Below are positions 2,467 through 57,681 of a stretch of DNA of 57,681 nt, piece by piece. Position 1 is the stretch's first letter. Every line of letters starts with the position of its first letter. The translations under genes were made by a program, and so were the position numbers. This DNA comes from Gammaproteobacteria bacterium (GTDB lineage: Bacteria; Pseudomonadota; Gammaproteobacteria; Ga0077554; Ga007554): NCBI GenBank assembly GCA_021731145.1, contig JAKFXX010000014.1, forward strand, positions 1-57,681, in the 5' to 3' direction. The notes below the pieces were generated by a model, which was not told the DNA's origin, searched no databases, and saw only the letters and a program-made list of their open reading frames with translations.

Positions 2467-2761
2467 GTAAGAATGTAAGGCTTTGGGTTGGCGGCGACTA
2501 CGCCGCTGGCCGTCAAAGACCGTAGGTGTTTCGCTTAATGGGGTTGGTTTGAAGCTGGTCCCGCCTACGCAGATGGCGTACCCGAGACAGGTTTTCCCTG
2601 GCGACGGTTGCCGTAAGGGTGGGGTGCTTTTTTGGTTGAACGCTTTAGCGATCTACCGATGAGTGCCCTGTGGTTTACGTGGTAAGCGTGAAAAGGTTAC
2701 TGGTTGGCTTACTGAAAAGCTGGCGGTGGCCTGCATTGCGTTTATATACAGGGGAGCTCTC
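2467..2761 (+). promoter_or_regulatory. L10 (rplJL) autoregulatory leader
   Basis: The 295-bp gap before rplJ has no gene. It contains AGACCGTAGGTG near 2517 and CCTACGCAGATGG near 2564, the paired conserved segments of the gammaproteobacterial L10 leader. In that leader, the L10-L7/L12 complex binds the mRNA and represses translation of rplJ and rplL. The match was made by eye to the known E. coli element. The P(L10) promoter is expected in this interval but could not be placed with confidence. Confidence 0.75.
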
Positions 2762-3286
2762 TTGTTAACACTAGAAGATAAAAAGGCCATTGTTGCTGAA
2801 ATGGCCGGCGTTGCGAGTACCGCTCAAGCTGCGATTGCGGCCGAGTACCGTGGCTTGTCAGCAGAGCAGATGACCAAGTTGCGCTCTGAGGCGCGCAAGT
2901 CGGGTGTTTATCTGCGCGTTGTCAAGAATACACTGGCCCGGCGTGCATTCGAGGGGACTGGTTTTGCTTGCATGCAGTCCTCGATGGTTGGTCCACTGGT
3001 TCTGGCCTTCTCGACAGAAGAGCCTGCTGCCGCTGCCCGCCTGATGCGTGACTTCATGAAGGGTAATGACAAGCTGGTCGTCAAGGTTGTTGCGCTGGGC
3101 GGCAAGTTGTTGACTCCAGGCGATGTCGAGGCCTTGGCCAACATGCCGACACGCGATCAGGCGATTAGTCTGTTGATGGCGGTGATGAAGGCACCCGTGG
3201 AGAAATTTGTCCGCACCTTGGCCGAGCCTACCAGCAAAATGGTCCGTACCGTGGCGGCTATCCGCGATCAGAAACAGGCGGCTTAA
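2762..3286 (+). CDS. rplJ: 50S ribosomal protein L10
   Basis: L10 anchors the L7/L12 stalk and, with L12, is the autorepressor acting on the leader upstream. The start was set at TTG 2762, about 5 nt after GGGGAG, giving 174 residues beginning (M)LTLEDKKAIVAEM, which aligns with the family N-terminus (LEDKKAIV). The upstream ATG/GTG choices would add leader sequence. The RNA-binding part (VYLRVVKNTLARRAFEGT) and the C-terminal helix that binds L12 (LAEPTSKMVRTVAAI) are present. Confidence 0.95.
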   Translation: MLTLEDKKAIVAEMAGVASTAQAAIAAEYRGLSAEQMTKLRSEARKSGVYLRVVKNTLARRAFEGTGFACMQSSMVGPLVLAFSTEEPAAAARLMRDFMKGNDKLVVKVVALGGKLLTPGDVEALANMPTRDQAISLLMAVMKAPVEKFVRTLAEPTSKMVRTVAAIRDQKQAA

Positions 3287-3348
3287 TTCCCATTTATTTT
3301 TATCCGCGTCATAAACCGCGGTCATACATTTTTATTTAGGAGCGTAAC

Positions 3349-3723
3349 ATGGCTGTAAGCAAAGAAGATATTCTGGATACCATTTCCAACATGACCGTGC
3401 TGGAGATCGTTGACCTGATTTCCGCAATGGAAGAGAAGTTCGGCGTTTCCGCCGCTGCTGTAGCGGTTGCTGCCCCGGCTGCTGCGGGCGCTGCTGCGGT
3501 TGTTGAGGAGCAGACGGAGTTCAATGTTGTGATGACCAGCTTCGGCGACAACAAGGTTAACGTGATCAAAGTGGTTCGCGCCATCACGGGTCTTGGTCTG
3601 AAAGAAGCCAAAGATATGGTTGAAGCCGTTCCCGCCGTCGTCAAAGAAGGCGTGAGCAAGGCTGATGCCGAAGCGATGAAGAAGCAGTTGGAAGAAGCTG
3701 GTGCCAAGGTTGAGCTTAAGTAA
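3349..3723 (+). CDS. rplL: 50S ribosomal protein L7/L12
   Basis: This is the acidic stalk protein that recruits translational GTPases. The 124 residues comprise an N-terminal dimerisation helix ([18 protein letters not shown]), an Ala-rich hinge and the conserved C-terminal domain ([20 protein letters not shown]). A strong SD (AGGAG) lies 7-8 nt before ATG. It is co-transcribed with rplJ. A 675-bp spacer with a terminator-like attenuator separates it from rpoB. Confidence 0.98.
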
Positions 3724-4145
3724 GCGCTGCGTTTCCTCGCCTGTAAGCTGAGGGATTTGCCTTAGATATAGGAAGGTGTGTGCGGGCTTAATCAGCCTGC
3801 TAGCTTCCCTTGGCGCAGGACTTGAAGCAAAGAAGTGAATTGGCATAGACGGTAGCCTGCAAGGGTTACCGTCTGGTCACTGAGAGTTGCTGTTGATGGC
3901 AAACTCTTTTATGTGTGGTGGATTGGCGCGTATTAAGTTTACCGCTCGTCCCCGTTGATTCTTGATAAACATGGGATCTTTTTTGACTAGCCGATCTGAA
4001 ATGCTTGAGGATGAAGTTTTTCAGGTATGCTTGATGGGAAGATTTGTAAAGTATCCAGGCGAGTCATATCTGACACTGAACGAGTTATCAATAGCTGGGC
4101 GTCTGGCAGGCCCGCTCAACGTGATGCCGGGATAAGTTATTTTTT

Positions 4146-4174
4146 GGCTGGTGGCCATCGCCACCGGCCTTTTT
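4146..4174 (+). terminator. Attenuator-like intrinsic terminator ahead of rpoBC
   Basis: GGCTGGTGGC (4146-4155) pairs with GCCACCGGCC (4160-4169) around a CATC loop; the single mismatch is a G-U wobble. TTTTT-CT follows at once. This is a textbook intrinsic terminator. Because rpoBC has no other obvious strong start downstream, it probably works as a partial attenuator that lets a fraction of polymerase through to rpoBC. Confidence 0.8.
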
Positions 4175-4288
4175 CTGTTTCAACCATGTCCAGGCAGGCT
4201 GTTTTTTCAGTTGTTTGGTGCGTGGCGTAGTGAAGCATGACCATGTTTAAACATATTGAATGTTTGAGCATGGATTAAAGCAAAACAT

Positions 4289-48810: not shown

Positions 48811-51144
48811 ATGCTCGACATCCTGCGCCGCATTATCCAAGAGGTCAACTCCGCCCAGAATCTGGGGCAGGCGCTCGCCATTATCGTCAAACGCGTCAAG
48901 CAAGAGATGGTCGTCGAGGTTTGCTCGGTATATTTAGCCGACCCTGACACGGAGCACTACGTGCTGATGGCCAGCGACGGGCTTAATCAAGCCGCCATCG
49001 GCGTGGTGCGTCTGGCGCCGGGTGAGGGGATCATCAGCGTAGTTGCAGAGACCGCTGAGCCACTTAATCTTGACAGCGCCACCGGCCATCCACGTTACCG
49101 TTTCATCGCCGAGACCGGGGAGGAGCACTATCATGCCTTCCTCGGTGTGCCGATCATCCATCATCGCAGGGTATTGGGCGTGCTCGTGGTGCGTCAGTTT
49201 GCTCGCCGTCGCTTCGGGGAAGACGAGGTCGCCTTTCTGGTGACTGTCGCGGCCCAGCTTTCTGGGGCTATCGCCCATGCGCAGGCGAGCGGCGGGATCG
49301 ACGGCCTGAATGGTAGCGCCGCGCATGAGCTGCGCCCCATCGATGGCCTGCCGGGCGCGCCGGGCGTGGCCATAGGCACGGCGATGGTCGTCTATCCCGC
49401 TGCGGATCTGGACGCCGTGCCGGATCGAAAAATCACCAATATTGACGCCGAGGTGACCGCCTTCATGGCGGCAGTTGAAGCGGTACGGGCCGACATCCAG
49501 GCGCTCAGCGAGCGCCTCAGCCCGCTACTGCAGGCCGAAGACCGCGCGTTGTTTGATGCCTACCGACTTATGCTGGGCAGCGACAGCCTGGTGGAAAACA
49601 CGGTGCAGCGCATCCGCGCGGGGAGTTGGGCTTCCGGCGCCCTGCGTGAAACGGTCAACGAACACGCGCGCATCTTCGATGAAATGGATGACCCCTACAT
49701 CCGCGAACGCGCCGAAGATATCCGCGACCTGGGGCGGCGCATTCTGGTATGTCTGCAAAGCGGCAAGCGCAGCCAGCCGCCTTATCCGCTCAGGACTATC
49801 CTGGTGGGTGAAGAGATTACCGCCACCCTGCTTGCCGAAGTGCCCCACGAGCGGCTGGTCGGCGTGATATCGGCACGCGGCTCCAGTTCCTCGCATGTCG
49901 CCATTCTTGCGCGTGCGATGGGCATCCCCGCCGTAGTGGGCGCGAACGATCTGCCCGTGGCGCGCATGGACGGGCAGGAAATGATCGTCGATGGTCATAT
50001 GGGCAGGGTGTATGTAAAGCCCACCGCCAGCCTGCGCGTGGAATACGCCCGTCTGGAGCGCGAAGAGGCGGAGATCGCCGCCGGTCTTGCGGAATTGCGC
50101 GACCTTCCCGCCGTAACTCTGGACGGCATCCATGTTCCCCTGTATGCCAACACCGGATTGCTGTCGGATGTCGCCTCGTCGCTCAACAGCGGCGCGGAGG
50201 GTATCGGCCTGTACCGTACAGAAATCCCCTTCATGATCCGCCAACGCTTTCCCAGCGAGGAGGAGCAGAGCCGGGTCTACCGCCAGGTGCTGGAGGCCTA
50301 CGCCCCCCGTCCCGTGACGTTGCGCACATTGGATGTGGGCGGTGACAAGGATTTGCCCTATTTCCCCATCACCGAAGACAACCCCTTCCTCGGCTGGCGC
50401 GGCATCCGTATCACCCTTGACCATCCCGAAATCTTTATCGTACAACTGCGCGCCATGTTGCGTGCCAGCTCGGGGTTAAACAACCTGCACGTGCTGTTGC
50501 CCATGATTAGCGGCGTCACCGAAATCGACGAGGCACAGAGACTGCTGGACCGTGCCTACCGGGAATTGGTCGAGGCTGGGGAAACCATCGTGCGGCCCCG
50601 TGTCGGCGCGATGGTAGAGGTGCCCTCTGCGGTGTACCAGACCGAGGCTCTGGCGCGGCGCGTGGATTTCCTCTCGGTCGGCACCAACGACCTCACCCAG
50701 TATCTTCTTGCCGTGGACCGCAATAACGCCCGCGTCGCAAATCTTTACGATTCGCTGCACCCCGCCGTGCTGCGCGCCCTCATGCAAGTGGTCGACGGCG
50801 CGCACCGGCAAGGCAAACCTGTCAGCGTATGCGGAGAAATGGCCGGCGATCCGGCAGCGGCGCTGCTGCTGTTGGGCATGGGCATCGACAGCCTGAGCAT
50901 GAGCGCCGCCAGTCTGCCGCGTATCAAATGGGTAATACGCAACATCAGCCGCGTCCAAGCGCGTGAAATTCTTGAAGGCGCGCTTACCCTGGAAGATCCC
51001 GCCTCCATCCGCGCTTGCCTCAATGCCTGCTTGGAAGAGGCGGGGCTTGGTGGCTTGGTAAGAGGCGGCGCGCCGTCCGCAAAGCATGTCTTGCCTTGCA
51101 AGGCAAAGGTGGCGGGCGGGTCTTCGCAAGAAGTGGTCGTATAA
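48811..51144 (+). CDS. ptsP: PEP-protein phosphotransferase PtsP (EI-Ntr)
   Basis: PtsP is the first kinase of the nitrogen phosphotransferase system, passing phosphate from PEP to NPr. The 777 residues contain a GAF domain (about 1-165; VCSVYLADPDTEHYVLMASD, AFLGVPIIHHRRVLGVLVV), the phospho-His domain with H362 (GSSSSHVAILARAMGIPAVV), and the PEP-binding barrel (GIGLYRTEIPFM, VDFLSVGTNDLTQYLLAVDR, catalytic C674 in VCGEMAGDP). All key residues are present. It is probably co-transcribed with rppH. Confidence 0.97.
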   Translation: MLDILRRIIQEVNSAQNLGQALAIIVKRVKQEMVVEVCSVYLADPDTEHYVLMASDGLNQAAIGVVRLAPGEGIISVVAETAEPLNLDSATGHPRYRFIAETGEEHYHAFLGVPIIHHRRVLGVLVVRQFARRRFGEDEVAFLVTVAAQLSGAIAHAQASGGIDGLNGSAAHELRPIDGLPGAPGVAIGTAMVVYPAADLDAVPDRKITNIDAEVTAFMAAVEAVRADIQALSERLSPLLQAEDRALFDAYRLMLGSDSLVENTVQRIRAGSWASGALRETVNEHARIFDEMDDPYIRERAEDIRDLGRRILVCLQSGKRSQPPYPLRTILVGEEITATLLAEVPHERLVGVISARGSSSSHVAILARAMGIPAVVGANDLPVARMDGQEMIVDGHMGRVYVKPTASLRVEYARLEREEAEIAAGLAELRDLPAVTLDGIHVPLYANTGLLSDVASSLNSGAEGIGLYRTEIPFMIRQRFPSEEEQSRVYRQVLEAYAPRPVTLRTLDVGGDKDLPYFPITEDNPFLGWRGIRITLDHPEIFIVQLRAMLRASSGLNNLHVLLPMISGVTEIDEAQRLLDRAYRELVEAGETIVRPRVGAMVEVPSAVYQTEALARRVDFLSVGTNDLTQYLLAVDRNNARVANLYDSLHPAVLRALMQVVDGAHRQGKPVSVCGEMAGDPAAALLLLGMGIDSLSMSAASLPRIKWVIRNISRVQAREILEGALTLEDPASIRACLNACLEEAGLGGLVRGGAPSAKHVLPCKAKVAGGSSQEVVV

Positions 51145-51176
51145 TTAAATCCAGCTAACATAAAGAGGGATCTAAC

Positions 51177-51638
51177 ATGAAAATGACACATCGAATACTA
51201 CCCGTTGTAATGGCCGCAACATTATTAGTACCGTTTGCGGTGTCCGCAGAACCCGATAAGCATGGAGCACAGGGCGCCAGCGCCGATGCGCACAATGAAA
51301 AGGCACACAAGTCTGCCCATCATTTTACTGACCATTGGGCAAAAACATTGAACGACGATCAAAAAGCGCGCGTGGATATGATGCACCTCAAGCTTGATCG
51401 CGAACTCGTTGTGTTGAAGGCGCAGGAGGAGTTAGTGCAAAAAGAGATTAATGCCTCGGTGGCACGGGATAATGCAGACACAAACGCGATTCAGGCCAAG
51501 CTCGATGAGCTGATGGGCATAAAAAAACAGATCCTGCGTTCCCGGTATGCACATATTCTGGAAATGCGCGCAATACTAACGCCAGCACAACGCATCTCAT
51601 ACGACATGGGGACGCTTGAGTTTAGTGGTGTTAAGTGA
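51177..51638 (+). CDS. Periplasmic Spy/CpxP-like protein
   Basis: The 153-residue protein has a signal peptide (ILPVVMAATLLVPFAVSAEP), a His-rich mature N-terminus (HNEKAHKSAHHFTDHW) that could bind metal, and long amphipathic helices ending in ILTPAQRISYDM, an LTxxQ-type motif. This fits the Spy/CpxP/ZraP group of envelope chaperones and metal sensors. SD GAGGGA precedes ATG. It stands alone downstream of ptsP. Confidence 0.7.
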   Translation: MKMTHRILPVVMAATLLVPFAVSAEPDKHGAQGASADAHNEKAHKSAHHFTDHWAKTLNDDQKARVDMMHLKLDRELVVLKAQEELVQKEINASVARDNADTNAIQAKLDELMGIKKQILRSRYAHILEMRAILTPAQRISYDMGTLEFSGVK

Positions 51639-51765
51639 TTTTTGGCGGGGGGCTTGATTTGTAGTCCTGAACTGTAATGAAGGAAGCGAGCAAACTTACG
51701 CGCGACCTTGAAATAAGGTTCTTAAATCAATGCCGTGGCAATGTGGTTTCGATAAGGAGCAGAGC

Positions 51766-51966
51766 ATGGGACAACTGAATCGCATCACCCAGCAGCCCGA
51801 TGTGATGGGCGGCAAGGCGTGCATCCGCGGCATGCGCGTTACGGTCGGCATGGTCGTGGGTCAGATTGGTGCCGGCCACAGCATTGATGAAGTTCTGGCC
51901 GACTACCCCTACCTCGAACGTGAGGACATCATGCAGGCGCTTCGCTACCCCGCATGGCGGGCCTGA
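51766..51966 (+). CDS. DUF433 antitoxin-like protein
   Basis: The 66-residue protein matches the DUF433 family (RITQQPDVMGGKACIRGMRV, TVGMVVGQIGAGHS, DYPYLEREDIMQAL), small DNA-binding proteins usually paired with a DUF5615 PIN-like toxin. ATG 51766 follows AAGGAG. The partner gene directly downstream is gutted, so this is probably an orphan antitoxin. It opens the accessory island before clpB. Confidence 0.78.
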   Translation: MGQLNRITQQPDVMGGKACIRGMRVTVGMVVGQIGAGHSIDEVLADYPYLEREDIMQALRYPAWRA

Positions 51967-52144
51967 CTCGGAGATCATGGCCTACGCCAGTGCGAACGAC
52001 TACGTGGTATTCACCCACGATCTGGATTTCAGCGTGATCCTCGCCGCTACCCGCAGTGAGAAGCCCAGCGTATTGCAAATCCGTGCCGAGGACGTCAGTC
52101 CGGAGGTGGTGATCAGCAAACAGGTCATCGCCACAGCATCTTGA
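51965..52144 (+). pseudogene. DUF5615 (PIN-like) toxin, N-terminal part lost
   Basis: In the frame next to the DUF433 stop, a segment reads DSEIMAYASANDYVVFTHDL, then DFSVILAATRSEKPSVLQIR and on to TGA 52144. This is the C-terminal two-thirds of a DUF5615 protein. The usual start with its first catalytic acidic residue (LLDENLP-like) is missing, and no start codon with an SD precedes it. A deletion between the two genes appears to have removed the toxin start. Confidence 0.7.
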
Positions 52145-52203
52145 CTGGGAATAGTAAATGGCATATTGTCCGCATAATTTCCCAGATAATTCCAAGATAA
52201 TAA

Positions 52204-54279
52204 ATGCCCATGAATGCCACCCTAACCCCGGTCAGCGATCAAGGCGCCGCGCTTTCCTGTCTGGACGAAGCCCGCAAGCACCATACACAAGCCGCCATTG
52301 CCAAATATTTGGACATTGATGTCCGCACAGTCAGAAGGTGGGAAGCGAGAGAAACTCACCCTCCCGCCTATTTGTCTCACGCATTGCAGCAACTATTGCC
52401 ATTCGGCGAGGACAGGCCAGAAGGCGCTTTCGATTTCATCGACCTGTTCGCGGGCATCGGCGGCCTGCGCAAGGCATTTGAACAAATCGGTGGGCGGTGC
52501 GTATTCACCAGCGAATGGGACACCTACGCGCAGAAAACCTACGCCGAAAATTTCCGTGATGGACACCCCATTGCCGGAGACATCACCCAAGTGCAGGCCG
52601 CCGACATTCCCAATCACGACGTATTGCTGGCAGGCTTTCCCTGCCAGCCCTTCTCGATTGCTGGGGTATCGAAGAAGAATGCGCTGGGCAAGGCTCACGG
52701 TTTTGCCTGCGAAACGCAAGGCACCCTGTTCTTCGATGTGGCGCGCATCATCGAGGCAAAACGCCCACGCGCCTTTCTGCTGGAAAACGTCAAGAACCTC
52801 GTCTCGCACGACAAAGGCCGCACCTTCGATGTCATCCGCCGCACCCTGACCGAAGTGCTCGGCTACCACATCCACTATCGCGTCATCGACGGCGCGCATT
52901 TTGTCCCGCAACACCGCGAGCGCATCCTCATCGTCGGCTTCCGCGAGCCGGTTGCATTCGATTTTGATGCCTTGCCCCTGCCGCCCAAGGGCCAGCGCAA
53001 ACTCAAGGACATCCTGCACCGCACCGATGGCAGCGAACCTGAATTGCCATGGGACGAAGGAAGATTCTTCGATCACAAAAAAAAGCGCGTGCAGGACAAA
53101 TACACCCTGACCGACAACCTCTGGCTCTACTTGCAGAATTATGCAGAGAAGCATCGCGCCAAGGGCAACGGCTTTGGCTTCGGCTTGGTCAAACCCGGAG
53201 ACGTGACGCGCACTTTATCGGCGCGCTACTACAAGGACGGATCGGAAATTCTCGTGTATCAGAGCACGAGAAAAAATCCGCGCCGGCTGACGCCCAGAGA
53301 ATGTGCACGGTTGATGGGTTATCCCGATACGTTCAGGATCCCGGTGTCGGATACGCGGGCGTACCAAATATTTTCTCAGGCAGCAGTTGTACCGATGGTT
53401 GAATATGCAGCTAAACTGATGGTGTCGCAACTCAACTTAGGGGAGAAGGCACCGGAAGCGAAAGCTGTCGAAGTGCCGCAAGACATAATGACCACAACTC
53501 GCTGGACGAAAGAACAACTCAAGCTCGCATTCCATCTGTACTGCCAACTTTCTTTTGGAAGGTTGCATAGCCGCAATCCCGAAATTATCCAGCTTGCAAA
53601 ATTAATTGGACGAACACCCGGTGCCGTAGCAATGAAGCTGGTGAATTTTGCCAGCCTCGATCCGGCAATCACCAACACCGGACGGGCGGGCTTGGGGAAT
53701 GCTGGTTCGCTCGACAAAGAAGTTTGGGCTGAATTTCATGCCGACTGGGAAAAACTCGCGCTTGAATGCACCCTGTTAAACGCTCAACTCCGTAAGGATG
53801 CAGGAGCCGAAGCAGTTGTTGAATTGGACGTTACCGAACAAGAGGGTCTCCAAGATTTTACTGGCGAGACAAAGCGAGTGATGACTGAACAACGGGTTAA
53901 GCAACACTTCTTCCGGCGTGCGGTGCTGAGTAGCTATCGGGGGCGTTGTTGCCTATCTGGTCTTTCGGATACGCGCTTGCTGATGGCAAGCCATATTGTG
54001 TCGTGGAGTAGCGACAAAACAAATCGTCTTAATCCCAGCAATGGCCTGTGTCTTTCTGCCATCCACGACAAGGCATTTGATCGAGGGTTGATAGCGATCT
54101 CAGATAACTATGAGGTGATGCTGTCTGAGCAATTGAAGCGAAATGATGATGCCTTTGTTGCCCAGATATTTCTGCCATTGGAGGGCTGCAGAATTGAGTT
54201 GCCGGAGAAATTTATTCCGAGCATCGCTTTTCTTACGCGCCATCGCAACGAGATTTTTATTGATGTCGCAGGCCAATAA
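52204..54279 (+). CDS. Dcm-like cytosine-C5 methyltransferase fused to an HNH endonuclease
   Basis: One 691-residue polypeptide has three parts. Residues about 20-65 form an HTH-like region (HTQAAIAKYLDIDVRTVRRW). Residues 75-415 form a C5 methylase with motif I DLFAGIGG (D80), motif IV GFPCQPFS (catalytic C147), motif VI LENVKN (E194), motif VIII QHRERI and a TRD close to Dcm (GNGFGFG, VTRTLSARYYKDGSEILV). From about 429, a formerly separate HNH protein begins at M429 (RWTKEQLKLAFHLYCQL) and carries H597 (ASHIV), N613 (NPSNGLCL) and H621 (HDKAFDRG). Methylase motif X reads IFSQAAVV where family members have FGNSVVV. Dcm similarity predicts CCWGG. The frame has no internal stop. Confidence 0.88.
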   Translation: MPMNATLTPVSDQGAALSCLDEARKHHTQAAIAKYLDIDVRTVRRWEARETHPPAYLSHALQQLLPFGEDRPEGAFDFIDLFAGIGGLRKAFEQIGGRCVFTSEWDTYAQKTYAENFRDGHPIAGDITQVQAADIPNHDVLLAGFPCQPFSIAGVSKKNALGKAHGFACETQGTLFFDVARIIEAKRPRAFLLENVKNLVSHDKGRTFDVIRRTLTEVLGYHIHYRVIDGAHFVPQHRERILIVGFREPVAFDFDALPLPPKGQRKLKDILHRTDGSEPELPWDEGRFFDHKKKRVQDKYTLTDNLWLYLQNYAEKHRAKGNGFGFGLVKPGDVTRTLSARYYKDGSEILVYQSTRKNPRRLTPRECARLMGYPDTFRIPVSDTRAYQIFSQAAVVPMVEYAAKLMVSQLNLGEKAPEAKAVEVPQDIMTTTRWTKEQLKLAFHLYCQLSFGRLHSRNPEIIQLAKLIGRTPGAVAMKLVNFASLDPAITNTGRAGLGNAGSLDKEVWAEFHADWEKLALECTLLNAQLRKDAGAEAVVELDVTEQEGLQDFTGETKRVMTEQRVKQHFFRRAVLSSYRGRCCLSGLSDTRLLMASHIVSWSSDKTNRLNPSNGLCLSAIHDKAFDRGLIAISDNYEVMLSEQLKRNDDAFVAQIFLPLEGCRIELPEKFIPSIAFLTRHRNEIFIDVAGQ

Positions 54280-54304
54280 ACTTCTGCCTGCGAAGGAGGA
54301 ACTT

Positions 54305-54682
54305 ATGACTAATCCGGTCGTGCTTCACGAAGATGTTTTCTATGAGTATTTCAAGCCATATCGCCACCCTGATGCGTGCCACGACATTTGGGGTGGATTA
54401 GGTCTGGAAACTTTTGGCAAAGACCTTGATACAGTCAGAAAGGTGGATGCCTCTTATTTGTGGACAGTGGTGGAAGGTGGTTCAAGCAATGACCAGTGGA
54501 TTACTCCCGGATACCATTTCGTTAATCGCATATGCTACTTGGTCACAGAAAAATCTCATCAAGGGATTGATGTAGAGTTTCGAGTTCCAAGTCGATTAAA
54601 TTCTTTAACGCCTATCGGACTGACGAGACAGATAAACAAAATTTCTCGTTTATTCCAAGCTGCTCATCAAGGAAAACAATGA
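54305..54682 (+). CDS. Unrecognised 125-residue protein in the R-M locus
   Basis: ATG 54305 follows AAGGAGG at good spacing (54295-54301), 25 bp after the methylase-HNH stop, so it is probably translated from the same message. The protein is soluble and rich in aromatic residues (HEDVFYEYFKPYRHPDACHD, IWGGLGLETFGKDL, SYLWTVVEGGSSNDQWITPG). No family was recognised and no catalytic motif is obvious. DNA here is clearly more A+T-rich than the flanking chromosome. Its last codons run into the truncated nuclease remnant in another frame. Confidence 0.6.
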   Translation: MTNPVVLHEDVFYEYFKPYRHPDACHDIWGGLGLETFGKDLDTVRKVDASYLWTVVEGGSSNDQWITPGYHFVNRICYLVTEKSHQGIDVEFRVPSRLNSLTPIGLTRQINKISRLFQAAHQGKQ

Positions 54683-55256
54683 TCGACGAGCTGATTTCAG
54701 GGGTATTGAGGTCAAATGCAAGCAGATCAAAGAAACTGGCGGACATGGCGGAAAAATAAACCTGTTCCAGCAAGCGCCAAGATGGGAGGGAAAATTATCT
54801 GGACTGGAGCGATTACGTCTGATTGGCCAGCCGGATGAGCATGGTAACTATGCTTGCCATTCCCAAGTGACTACGACAGTTAACAACCTCGGATTGTTAC
54901 TTGACCCATCCGCCACACCTGAACAGATTGATTTATTGAAAGGGATTTCACGATTTGGTTACTGGCCCTTCGGGGTTCTTGAGGGGCGGCTTCGTGAAAA
55001 GCATTCTCGCGCAGTCTTCGTGAAAGCGGATGTGCGTAACGCTGCTGGCCGGCAGCGTTTTCACTACAAGGAGTTGATTTACTGTGAGAGACCGTCAATC
55101 CAGCGTTTCAACGACCTCGTTCGGGCGAAACGAATCGTGTTCGAATTTCTGATGTCAGAGAAGGAAGGGGTGGTTCGCAATCACGGCTATCCTTGGCGGC
55201 TGACGGGCGAAGAGTTTTTGAGTGAGTTGTTCTCATTGCGTGTAAAACTCAGATGA
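54639..55256 (+). pseudogene. MvaI/BcnI-family restriction endonuclease, 5' truncated
   Basis: A frame open from 54639 to TGA 55256 encodes a block typical of MvaI/BcnI endonucleases. It reads LIKENNDRRADFRGIEVKCK (D...ExK catalytic core), GGKINLFQQAPRW, TTTVNNLGLLLD, FHYKELIYCERPSIQRFNDL and NHGYPWRL. The family's first 50-60 residues are missing, and the frame has no ATG, GTG or TTG before a GTG at 54867, which lies after the catalytic residues. MvaI cuts CCWGG, the site predicted for the upstream methylase. Confidence 0.75.
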
Positions 55257-55297
55257 CGCCACATTTCTCAGTGCAGTTCCCGCTCATGATTCAGCAA

Positions 55298-55379
55298 AGG
55301 CCGCACGCCCCCGGAAGCGAGAGTTTCACGTACGGTTCTGCGAGAGGCTAAAGGGGAAGTACCTTTGGCCTATTCGACC
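55298..55379 (+). mobile_element. Group II intron 3'-end remnant (domains V-VI)
   Basis: The segment ...GGAAGCGAGAGTTTCACGTA, then CGGTTCTGCGAGAGGC, is the well-known 3' half of group II intron domain V. It is followed by a domain VI-like stem (GGCTAAAGG...CCTTTGGCC) and an ending CTATTCGAC typical of bacterial intron 3' splice sites. The 5' strand of domain V is recognisable at about 55298 (AGGCCGCACG). The reverse transcriptase and domains I-IV are absent, so this is a dead fragment. Recognition was by eye. Confidence 0.7.
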
Positions 55380-55562
55380 AGAGTCATTTAAAGATGAAGA
55401 TCGAGATAGAAGCTACGTTCAAGACAAAAATAGGGCAACCAAGGTGATGGCGGCCTTCGAGAAGGGTTCCGTCCCCTTAAACTGCCCCCGTCCCCAGGTT
55501 GAATCCCCGCCAGACCACCCCCATCATCTAACCATCAATATCTTCCAATATGAGGTAATCCG
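55380..55562 (+). other. Spacer between the intron remnant and clpB
   Basis: This 183-bp stretch has no convincing gene. A 17-codon frame near 55393 (MKIEIEATFKTKIGQPR) has no SD and may be a remnant of the gene the intron entered. The last 70 bp are C-rich. A sigma-32 promoter for clpB would be expected here, but none could be placed with confidence. Confidence 0.4.
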
Positions 55563-57681
55563 ATGCGTATGGACAAACTGACCAGCAAGTTCCAGATGGC
55601 GCTGGCCGATGCCCAGAGCCTGGCGGTGGGGCGTGATCATCAGTTCATTGAGCCGGTGCATGTGATGACCGCCCTGCTCGATCAGCAGGGCGGCGCGGTG
55701 CGTTCACTGCTGACCCAAGCTGATGTCAATGTCAACAGTCTGCGCTCGCAGCTTGGCGAGGCGCTGGAGCGCCTGCCGACGGTGTCGGGCGCGGAGGGCG
55801 AGGTGCATGTATCCAATGACTTGAGCCGTTTGTTGAATCTTGCCGACAAGCTGGCCCAGCAGCGCAAGGATCAATATATCTCCAGCGAGTTGTTCGTGCT
55901 CGCGGCGCTGGAAGACAAGGGTGCGCTGGGGGATCTGCTGCGCAAGGCTGGGGCGGCCAAGGGTTCTCTCCAGCAGGCCATCGAAAAGATGCGCGGCGGT
56001 CAGAAGGTGGATGATCCGAATGCCGAGGAGCAGCGTCAGGCGCTGGAAAAATACACCATCGACCTTACCGAGCGTGCCGAGCAGGGCAAGATTGACCCGG
56101 TGATTGGGCGTGACGACGAGATTCGCCGCACCATTCAGGTGTTGCAGCGCCGCACCAAGAACAATCCGGTGCTGATCGGTGAGCCGGGCGTGGGCAAGAC
56201 CGCTATCGTGGAAGGCCTTGCGCAGCGCATTGTCAACGGCGAGGTGCCGGAAGGGCTCAAGGGCAGGCGTGTGCTGTCGCTGGACATGGGCGCATTGATT
56301 GCCGGTGCCAAGTTCCGTGGCGAGTTCGAGGAGCGCCTCAAGGCGGTGTTGAACGATCTCGCCAAGCAGGAAGGAAATGTCATCCTGTTTATAGACGAAC
56401 TGCACACCATGGTCGGCGCGGGCAAGGCGGAAGGCTCTATGGACGCGGGCAACATGCTCAAGCCAGCTCTGGCACGTGGCGAGTTGCACTGCGTGGGCGC
56501 CACGACACTGAATGAATACCGTCAATACGTTGAGAAAGATGCCGCGCTGGAACGCCGTTTCCAGAAGGTGCTGGTGGATGAGCCGTCGGTTGAGGATACC
56601 ATCGCCATCCTGCGCGGCCTGAAGGAAAAATACGAGGCGCATCACGGCGTCGACATCACCGATCCGGCAATTGTCGCGGCGGCCACCCTGTCACACCGTT
56701 ACATCACCGACCGTAACCTGCCGGACAAGGCGATTGATCTGATTGACGAAGCGGCCAGCCGTATCCGCATGGAAATCGACTCCAAGCCGGAAGAGATGGA
56801 TCGTCTGGAGCGTCGTCTGATTCAGCTCAAGATCGAACGCGAGGCGTTGAAAAAAGAGGCCGACGAGGCATCCAGAAAGCGTCTGGATATTCTCCAGATT
56901 GAAATCGGCAAGCTGGAGCGGGAATTCGCCGATCTGGAGGAGATCTGGAAGGCGGAAAAGGCCGCGATACACGGTACCCAGCATATCAAGGAGGCGCTCG
57001 ATCAGGCACGTATCGAGCTGGAGACGGCACGCCGCGCGGGCAACCTCGCGCGCATGTCCGAGCTGCAATATGGCCGTATCCCAGAGTTACAGAAGCAACT
57101 CGACATGGCCGCGCAGGCCGAGATGCACGAGATGAAATTGCTGCGCAACAAGGTAAGCGACGAGGAGATCGCCGAGGTGGTTTCCAAATGGACCGGCATC
57201 CCGGTGTCGAAAATGCTGGAGGGCGAGCGCGACAAACTGCTGCGTATGGAGGAGGAGCTGGGCAAGCGCGTCGTAGGGCAAATGGAGGCGGTGAAGGCGG
57301 TATCCGATGCGATACGCCGTTCGCGTGCGGGCTTGTCCGACCCCAACCGGCCCAATGGTTCGTTCCTGTTCCTCGGTCCCACCGGCGTGGGCAAGACTGA
57401 GTTGACCAAGGCCTTGGCGGCATTCCTGTTCGACACCGATGATGCCATGGTGCGCATCGACATGTCCGAGTTCATGGAGAAGCATTCCGTGGCACGGCTG
57501 ATCGGCGCGCCGCCCGGCTATGTGGGCTATGAAGAGGGTGGGTACCTCACCGAAGCGGTGCGCCGCAAGCCTTATTCGGTGATCCTGCTCGATGAAGTGG
57601 AAAAGGCCCATCCCGACGTATTCAACGTGCTGTTGCAGGTGCTCGACGACGGACGTCTCACGGACGGCCAGGGGCGCACCG
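55563..57681 (+). CDS. clpB: ATP-dependent disaggregase ClpB (3' end outside window)
   Basis: ClpB is a AAA+ ring that, with DnaK, pulls proteins out of aggregates. The visible 706 residues start [20 protein letters not shown]. They include the N-domain repeat, first Walker A GEPGVGKT (206-213), Walker B ILFIDELH, a coiled middle domain (about 400-520, rich in Leu, Glu and Lys) and second Walker A GPTGVGKT (605-612, the same position as in E. coli ClpB). The window ends after [15 protein letters not shown] 55563 follows GAGG. No defect is seen. Confidence 0.97.

Follow-up and report, generated by a model that had tools for sequence, protein, structure and literature searches.

The open reading frame at positions 54639–55256 of the window (the whole 57,681-nucleotide stretch of contig JAKFXX010000014.1 analysed here, from a Gammaproteobacteria bacterium) is, by its homology, a stub that retains the 3′ part of a restriction nuclease of the MvaI/BcnI type. 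The account that we favor, with a probability of about three in four, is that the front of a UbaLAI-like nuclease was removed in a block exchange that brought in an HNH nuclease domain and a small gene (here P3), and that the stub left behind serves as a recombination arm and is dead as a nuclease. A broader proposal, held tentatively and at somewhat less than even odds, is that the methylase and the nuclease 3′ end act as homology arms by which the whole effector part is swapped; stubs would then be arms rather than debris, and the fusion of a C5 methylase with HNH, with its changed motif X, would be a distinct functional effector.

The stub, its intact counterpart and the exchanged block

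The frame is a single open translation of 205 codons plus a stop, and its length of 206 codons compares with a maximum of 169 in 2000 base shuffles of the stretch. It matches the MvaI_BcnI family (PF15515) with 79.7 bits, against a curated cut-off of 25, over profile positions 31–221 of 227; positions 1–30 are missing from the profile match, leaving the catalytic domain incomplete. The PADLOC nuclease profile PDLC03584 (405 positions) is covered from 205 to 403 only, indicating that the N-terminal half of the nuclease has been lost. A D-x4-E-x-K core is retained at 54693–54716 on the forward strand (D19 at 54693, E24 at 54708, and K26 at 54714, as aligned to MvaI via the intact relative L009), within the sequence ADFRGIEVK at 54690–54716. 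The frame contains no usable translation start of its own: the first ATG, GTG, or TTG codon is a GTG at 54867, 3′ of the core, and no sequence resembling a ribosome-binding site lies upstream of it. The first-pass annotation had described a frame with a D…ExK core and the C-terminal blocks of MvaI/BcnI enzymes but with neither an N-terminus nor a usable start, and this description holds. The open frame that it placed at 54639 is real as well, but nuclease homology begins only at 54666; codons 54639–54665 are the 3′ end of P3 (54305–54682) read in a different frame. The stub proper (54666–55256, forward strand) corresponds approximately to codons 211–407 of a nuclease of UbaLAI-like architecture and would represent the right arm of the exchange.

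A scan of 84,980 genomes yielded four close relatives. One of these, locus L009 of Ca. Ferrigenium bremense, bears out the earlier suggestion that the locus was once a normal methylase with an MvaI-like nuclease, and supplies the intact copy that had been sought in related genomes. Its gene order is methylase, small gene, vsr, nuclease, with a methylase of 424 aa without HNH, a 93-aa gene, a Vsr (PF03852, 6e-31), and a complete 407-aa nuclease. The nuclease matches PF15515 positions 2–223; its residues 7–170 match the solved UbaLAI domain 5o63 (E 6.5e-48) and residues 177–396 match MvaI (2oa9). On these matches, the ancestral nuclease is a two-domain, UbaLAI-like enzyme; this architecture, and the loss of vsr along with the nuclease front, extend what had been proposed for the locus. 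The window stub and the L009 nuclease share approximately 88% protein identity over their common part, and neither the UbaLAI-type N-terminal domain nor the L009 segment TGIGYTFETQ, the first helix of the catalytic domain, is present in the stub. Comparison with L009 places the 5′ break at 54666, with nuclease codons 1–208 gone.

Comparison of the window with L009 by blastn recovers DNA homology at 52210–53363 (83.4% identity) and 54666–55258 (85.5%, L009 8013–8605 for the stub), with none in between. The left arm is thus the part of the methylase gene in common with L009 (52210–53363, forward strand), its end at 53363 given by both blastn and alignment. The intervening replacement block (53364–54665, forward strand), which comprises the methylase C-terminus, HNH, and P3, has no counterpart in L009 and is continuous in homology with L008 and L010; its HNH–P3 portion is also continuous with L114 and L115. 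On the left, the joint lies behind methylase motif IX and ahead of motif X, which reads FGNSVVV in L009 and FSQAAVVP in the window. Read in this way, the sequence is that of a swapped block: a methylase tail, HNH, and P3 stand where an L009-type locus has motif X of its methylase, the small gene, vsr, and codons 1–208 of the nuclease.

The fusion gene occupies 52204–54279 (forward strand) and encodes, in one frame of 691 aa, a predicted Dcm-like C5-cytosine methylase (PF00145, residues 76–405, 267 bits; TIGR00675, dcm) and an HNH_2 nuclease (PF13391, residues 582–632; PADLOC HNH family PDLC04132, residues 408–688). The methylase part has the PCQP, ENV, and QHRER motifs; motif X in its GN(S/A)V form was not found in it, the sequence reading FSQAAVVP instead. 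Its similarity to Dcm and the UbaLAI- and EcoRII-type partners found in relatives suggest a CCWGG specificity. In the HNH part (53488–54279, forward strand) the residues ASHI…NPSNG…IHD are conserved, as they are in 25/25 HNH copies compared, two of which read NPRNG and LHD. P3 (54305–54682, forward strand) is a 125-aa gene that accompanies HNH, being present in L084, L092, L114–L116, and L120, and it does so even at places without methylase or nuclease. Profile searches matched it to no family or named domain, and the structures predicted by AlphaFold for P3 (mean pLDDT 49) and for the intact nuclease (mean pLDDT 33) were left unused. Distant relatives of P3 stand alone on Sphingopyxis and Vibrio plasmids.

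The right-hand joint can be followed in the relatives. L008 and L010 have a common right joint with a 9-nt filler, which indicates one founding event for these loci. Relative to both, alignment places a further 30-bp deletion between ATCAA repeats in the window (54651–54665, forward strand), which altered the end of P3 and eliminated the junction TTG found in L008. The joints of L011 and L092 differ from that of L008, L010, and the window. Recent spread of the single L008/L010/window joint was considered and rejected, P3 beside the joint being as diverged as the stub. A programmed frameshift from P3 into the stub was likewise rejected, since the frame relation varies among joints (+1, +2, or the same frame behind a stop), as was the idea that the stub or P3 came from a virus or a plasmid: viral contigs contain no close relatives, and plasmid matches are distant only.

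Two further elements lie near the locus. Upstream of the methylase, two small overlapping frames at 51730–52144 resemble what we take to be a putative toxin–antitoxin pair. Between the stub and clpB, the sequence at 55314–55384 looks to us like the last part of a group II intron (its 3′ end); it recurs in many plasmids, where it is unannotated, and an Rfam search of 50000–57681 returned no match.

Recurrence of the exchange in related loci

The fusion protein was used to search 158 genomes of the L009 family (Gallionellaceae, going by the origins of L009 and L010), and 40 loci were fetched from this search before the state of their nucleases was known; most loci compared come from metagenome-assembled genomes. 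The nuclease is truncated at its 5′ end in all 18 HNH loci with nuclease sequence (including the window, L008, L010, L011, L039, and L040), none of which carries an intact nuclease beside the HNH gene, the combination that would have spoken against replacement of the nuclease. An open nuclease frame of approximately 405–480 aa is present in all 21 methylase loci without HNH, a set that includes L009 and three wider relatives (Fisher 1.6e-11 for HNH vs. nuclease truncation). Three groups are represented among the truncated nucleases: besides the UbaLAI-like MvaI type to which the window's stub belongs, there are another MvaI_BcnI type and EcoRII-C types. L039 and L040 have HNH and a 105-aa gene followed by a complete EcoRII-C catalytic domain, the N-terminal part alone being missing; these nucleases (L039 4394–5122 and that of L040) may still be active, as natural stand-alone EcoRII-C enzymes.

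Motif X follows the same division. It reads FSQAxVVP or LGQAAVVP in 15/15 HNH loci and FGNSV in 23/23 others, such that motif type and HNH presence agree in all 38 methylases read. A methylase tree built on residues up to motif IX requires nine changes of the HNH label, six of them forced by well supported branches, and places a locus without HNH as the nearest neighbor of the window's methylase; these nine changes indicate repeated exchange of whatever follows the methylase. In two cases, the alternative alleles occupy the same chromosomal place: L010 and L095 have the methylase (90.9%) and the prfB-side flank (89%) in common, and L088 and L093 the upstream flank (83%). Other loci occupy different chromosomal places, so for some copies the entire unit must have relocated, which speaks against allelic exchange in those instances.

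Most relatives carry the methylase and HNH fused; an in-frame stop separates them in L010 (6826–6840) and L090, and in L039 and L040 they are separate neighboring genes. The HNH gene of L011 (629–1402) itself looks mosaic, with a diverged N-terminal half and a C-terminal half that, together with P3, is close to the window; the synonymous distance of L011 to the window is approximately 2 for HNH vs. 0.6–0.7 for P3.

Substitution patterns, mechanism and alternative explanations

Between truncated copies the stub has a dN/dS of 0.09–0.11, similar to that of the methylase and HNH, in its 5′ and 3′ parts alike. Taken alone, this value argues against an old, decaying pseudogene, and of all the results it is the hardest to square with the decay supposed in the first-pass annotation. 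However, EcoRII-type stubs that cannot be functional (L088, which has lost its two ends, and L085, with a broken 3′ end) show values of 0.02–0.11; because these are equal or lower, a low dN/dS is no proof of function at these loci, and a functional stub argued from dN/dS alone was dropped on the same grounds. The L088 stub has 90.9% identity with the intact L099 gene, vs. 83% with L085, whose joint L088 also has. By synonymous distance, the L086 stub is nearer to L089 (0.38), which belongs to another joint group, than to L088 (1.35), while the HNH and small gene of L086 show the opposite, being nearer to L088 than to L089. Stubs interleave with intact alleles. The affinities of the L088 and L086 stubs show that, although the joint is old, the sequence behind it is traded between stubs and intact alleles. 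The same exchange, demonstrated for the EcoRII-C type, would explain the stub in the window; a single intact copy of its exact nuclease was found (L009), and right-arm exchange is consequently not directly demonstrable for this stub itself.

These observations can be assembled into a mechanism. In the intact state, a Dcm-like methylase and vsr were followed by a nuclease with a UbaLAI-type N-terminal and an MvaI-type catalytic domain. As the mosaic with L009 shows, a block consisting of a methylase 3′ end (with motif X), HNH, and P3 displaced the resident methylase 3′ end, small gene, vsr, and the first 208 nuclease codons. This probably happened by homologous recombination in which the methylase gene served as left arm and the conserved 3′ portion of the nuclease gene as right arm. 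The stub would be this right-hand arm, reset again and again to the recipient's allele and, in the window, presumably dead as a nuclease. The methylase–HNH protein may be the present effector, which is the least certain step.

Other explanations for the truncated frame fare less well. Shortening of an intact gene by assembly or sequencing error, including a frameshift that hides an intact upstream start, has next to no likelihood. The start is simply missing within this one assembly, but the missing N-terminal region occurs nowhere else in the genome, which has a single PF15515/PDLC03584 place, and four other, independent genomes have the same arrangement with different joints and likewise lack the nuclease N-terminus; together, these absences indicate that the truncation is not a sequencing error. 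The first-pass annotation had supposed that the nuclease decayed and that an HNH domain joined to the methylase may have assumed restriction, or that the methylase became a solitary protector. Decay in place, with the HNH takeover following it, now seems very improbable as an order of events, since vsr and the front of the nuclease are missing and the HNH–P3 block directly abuts a nuclease codon at the joint, nucleases of three families are cut alike, and none of the 21 methylase loci without HNH has a decayed nuclease; the position of a truncated nuclease beside the HNH fusion, and the frameshifts or stops in several stubs (L091, L118, and L010), would fit it. The sequence reads instead as an exchange of one block, and the substitution pattern of the stub is unlike that of an old decaying pseudogene. 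What stands of the proposal is replacement as such, as the HNH segment occupies the place of the nuclease front; its order and detail do not.

It is also unlikely, though less so, that the truncated frame is a working protein under selection, either a shortened nuclease or a DNA-binding regulator. Low dN/dS among truncated copies, their freedom from frameshifts, the strongest constraint in the 3′ 129 codons, and a GTG at codon 77 in 5/5 truncated copies where intact L009 has GTA would all suit such a protein. It is difficult to reconcile, however, with a window sequence that offers it no credible start codon or ribosome-binding site, with L010 (TTT at the joint, a nonsense codon, and a change of the catalytic D to N), with the absence of the active-site block from L011 and L092, with the lost first-helix segment, or with the dN/dS of stubs that are certainly dead.

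The HNH domain, Vsr and known restriction systems

The HNH domain resembles nucleases of restriction systems, and HNH and an intact standard nuclease are mutually exclusive among the loci compared; this exclusion is consistent with HNH taking over restriction. HNH is fused to or beside the methylase in 15 loci. HNH genes with intact motifs also occur in six genomes without a C5 methylase match (G875, G885, G886, G906, G756, and G763), which renders a simple role in cutting unmethylated CCWGG doubtful. HNH with or without the small partner is also found solitary, for example between putative uppP and thiC genes (names read off the sequence). HNH-family genes without an adjoining methylase, often with P3 or another small gene, are found in L115, L121, L122, L123 (about 2700–4200), L114, and L120. 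HNH may either act only with its methylase or do another job, possibly making Vsr dispensable.

HNH–P3 might replace Vsr in T:G mismatch repair at methylated sites, or do some unrelated job, with restriction lost and the methylase solitary. This we regard as a serious possibility that falls short of being probable; it concerns the role of HNH and so is compatible with the block exchange. A search for vsr found none in the window's genome or in 9 of the 11 other HNH-locus genomes tested, and the six genomes noted above suggest that HNH requires no C5 methylase for safety. In L039 and L040, moreover, HNH is found where vsr would be, and the EcoRII-C catalytic domain downstream of it is complete. 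A mere swap of vsr would not, however, require that the catalytic domain itself be cut, as it is in 16 of the 18 HNH loci, and in PADLOC this HNH family forms part of the models for Type II systems. A Neisseria gonorrhoeae record (L047 2980–4747; listed as a plasmid but chromosome-sized) contains, one after another, a Vsr, a methylase match of short extent, and a relative of HNH.

UbaLAI is a CCWGG-specific enzyme of two-domain order with an effector domain. Going by its title, the paper on UbaLAI (Sasnauskas et al., 2017; doi 10.1093/nar/gkx634) reports a monomeric Type IIE enzyme. The L009 nuclease has the UbaLAI domain order, whereas in the window the entire N-terminal domain is lost, as is the beginning of the catalytic one. 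With MvaI and BcnI (PF15515; PDB 2oa9, 2odh) the stub shares the D-x4-E-x-K core and C-terminal blocks; it differs in the loss of the first 30 profile positions and the start codon, and in its C5, Dcm-like partner methylase. The window methylase resembles Dcm and EcoRII-type methylases in its N-terminal helix-turn-helix-like segment and its NF007772 and TIGR00675 matches, and intact relatives have vsr alongside the methylase as these systems do; it departs from them in the fused HNH, the change of motif X from FGNSV to FSQAAV, and a genome without vsr. Known Type IIC proteins similarly combine methylase and nuclease domains in one chain, but are mostly an N-terminal PD-(D/E)xK domain with a gamma-class methylase (Pingoud et al., 2014; PMC4081073), whereas the window has a C5 methylase with a putative C-terminal HNH nuclease. 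Pseudogene fragments and nuclease loss between strains are likewise known at the methylase loci dam2/dcm of Metamycoplasma hominis (PMC10305163); here, by comparison, a defined block (vsr and the nuclease front) is replaced by HNH and a small gene, recurrently and in three nuclease families. Shuffling of restriction loci is thus known, and it is the recurring series that makes nuclease exchange readable in this case.

A nuclease without its matching methylase kills the cell, and how a restriction system swaps its nuclease without exposing the cell is therefore an open question. These loci offer many natural before/after pairs for a single methylase gene, their joints legible to the nucleotide, and suggest a route in which the methylase is kept and everything behind it is swapped by recombination between flanking common sequences. 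They also urge caution, in that a gene fragment which often recombines with intact alleles may show a low dN/dS that does not prove function. Finally, the strict link of HNH with a changed motif X and with loss of the standard nuclease makes the methylase–HNH protein a clear candidate for biochemical study.
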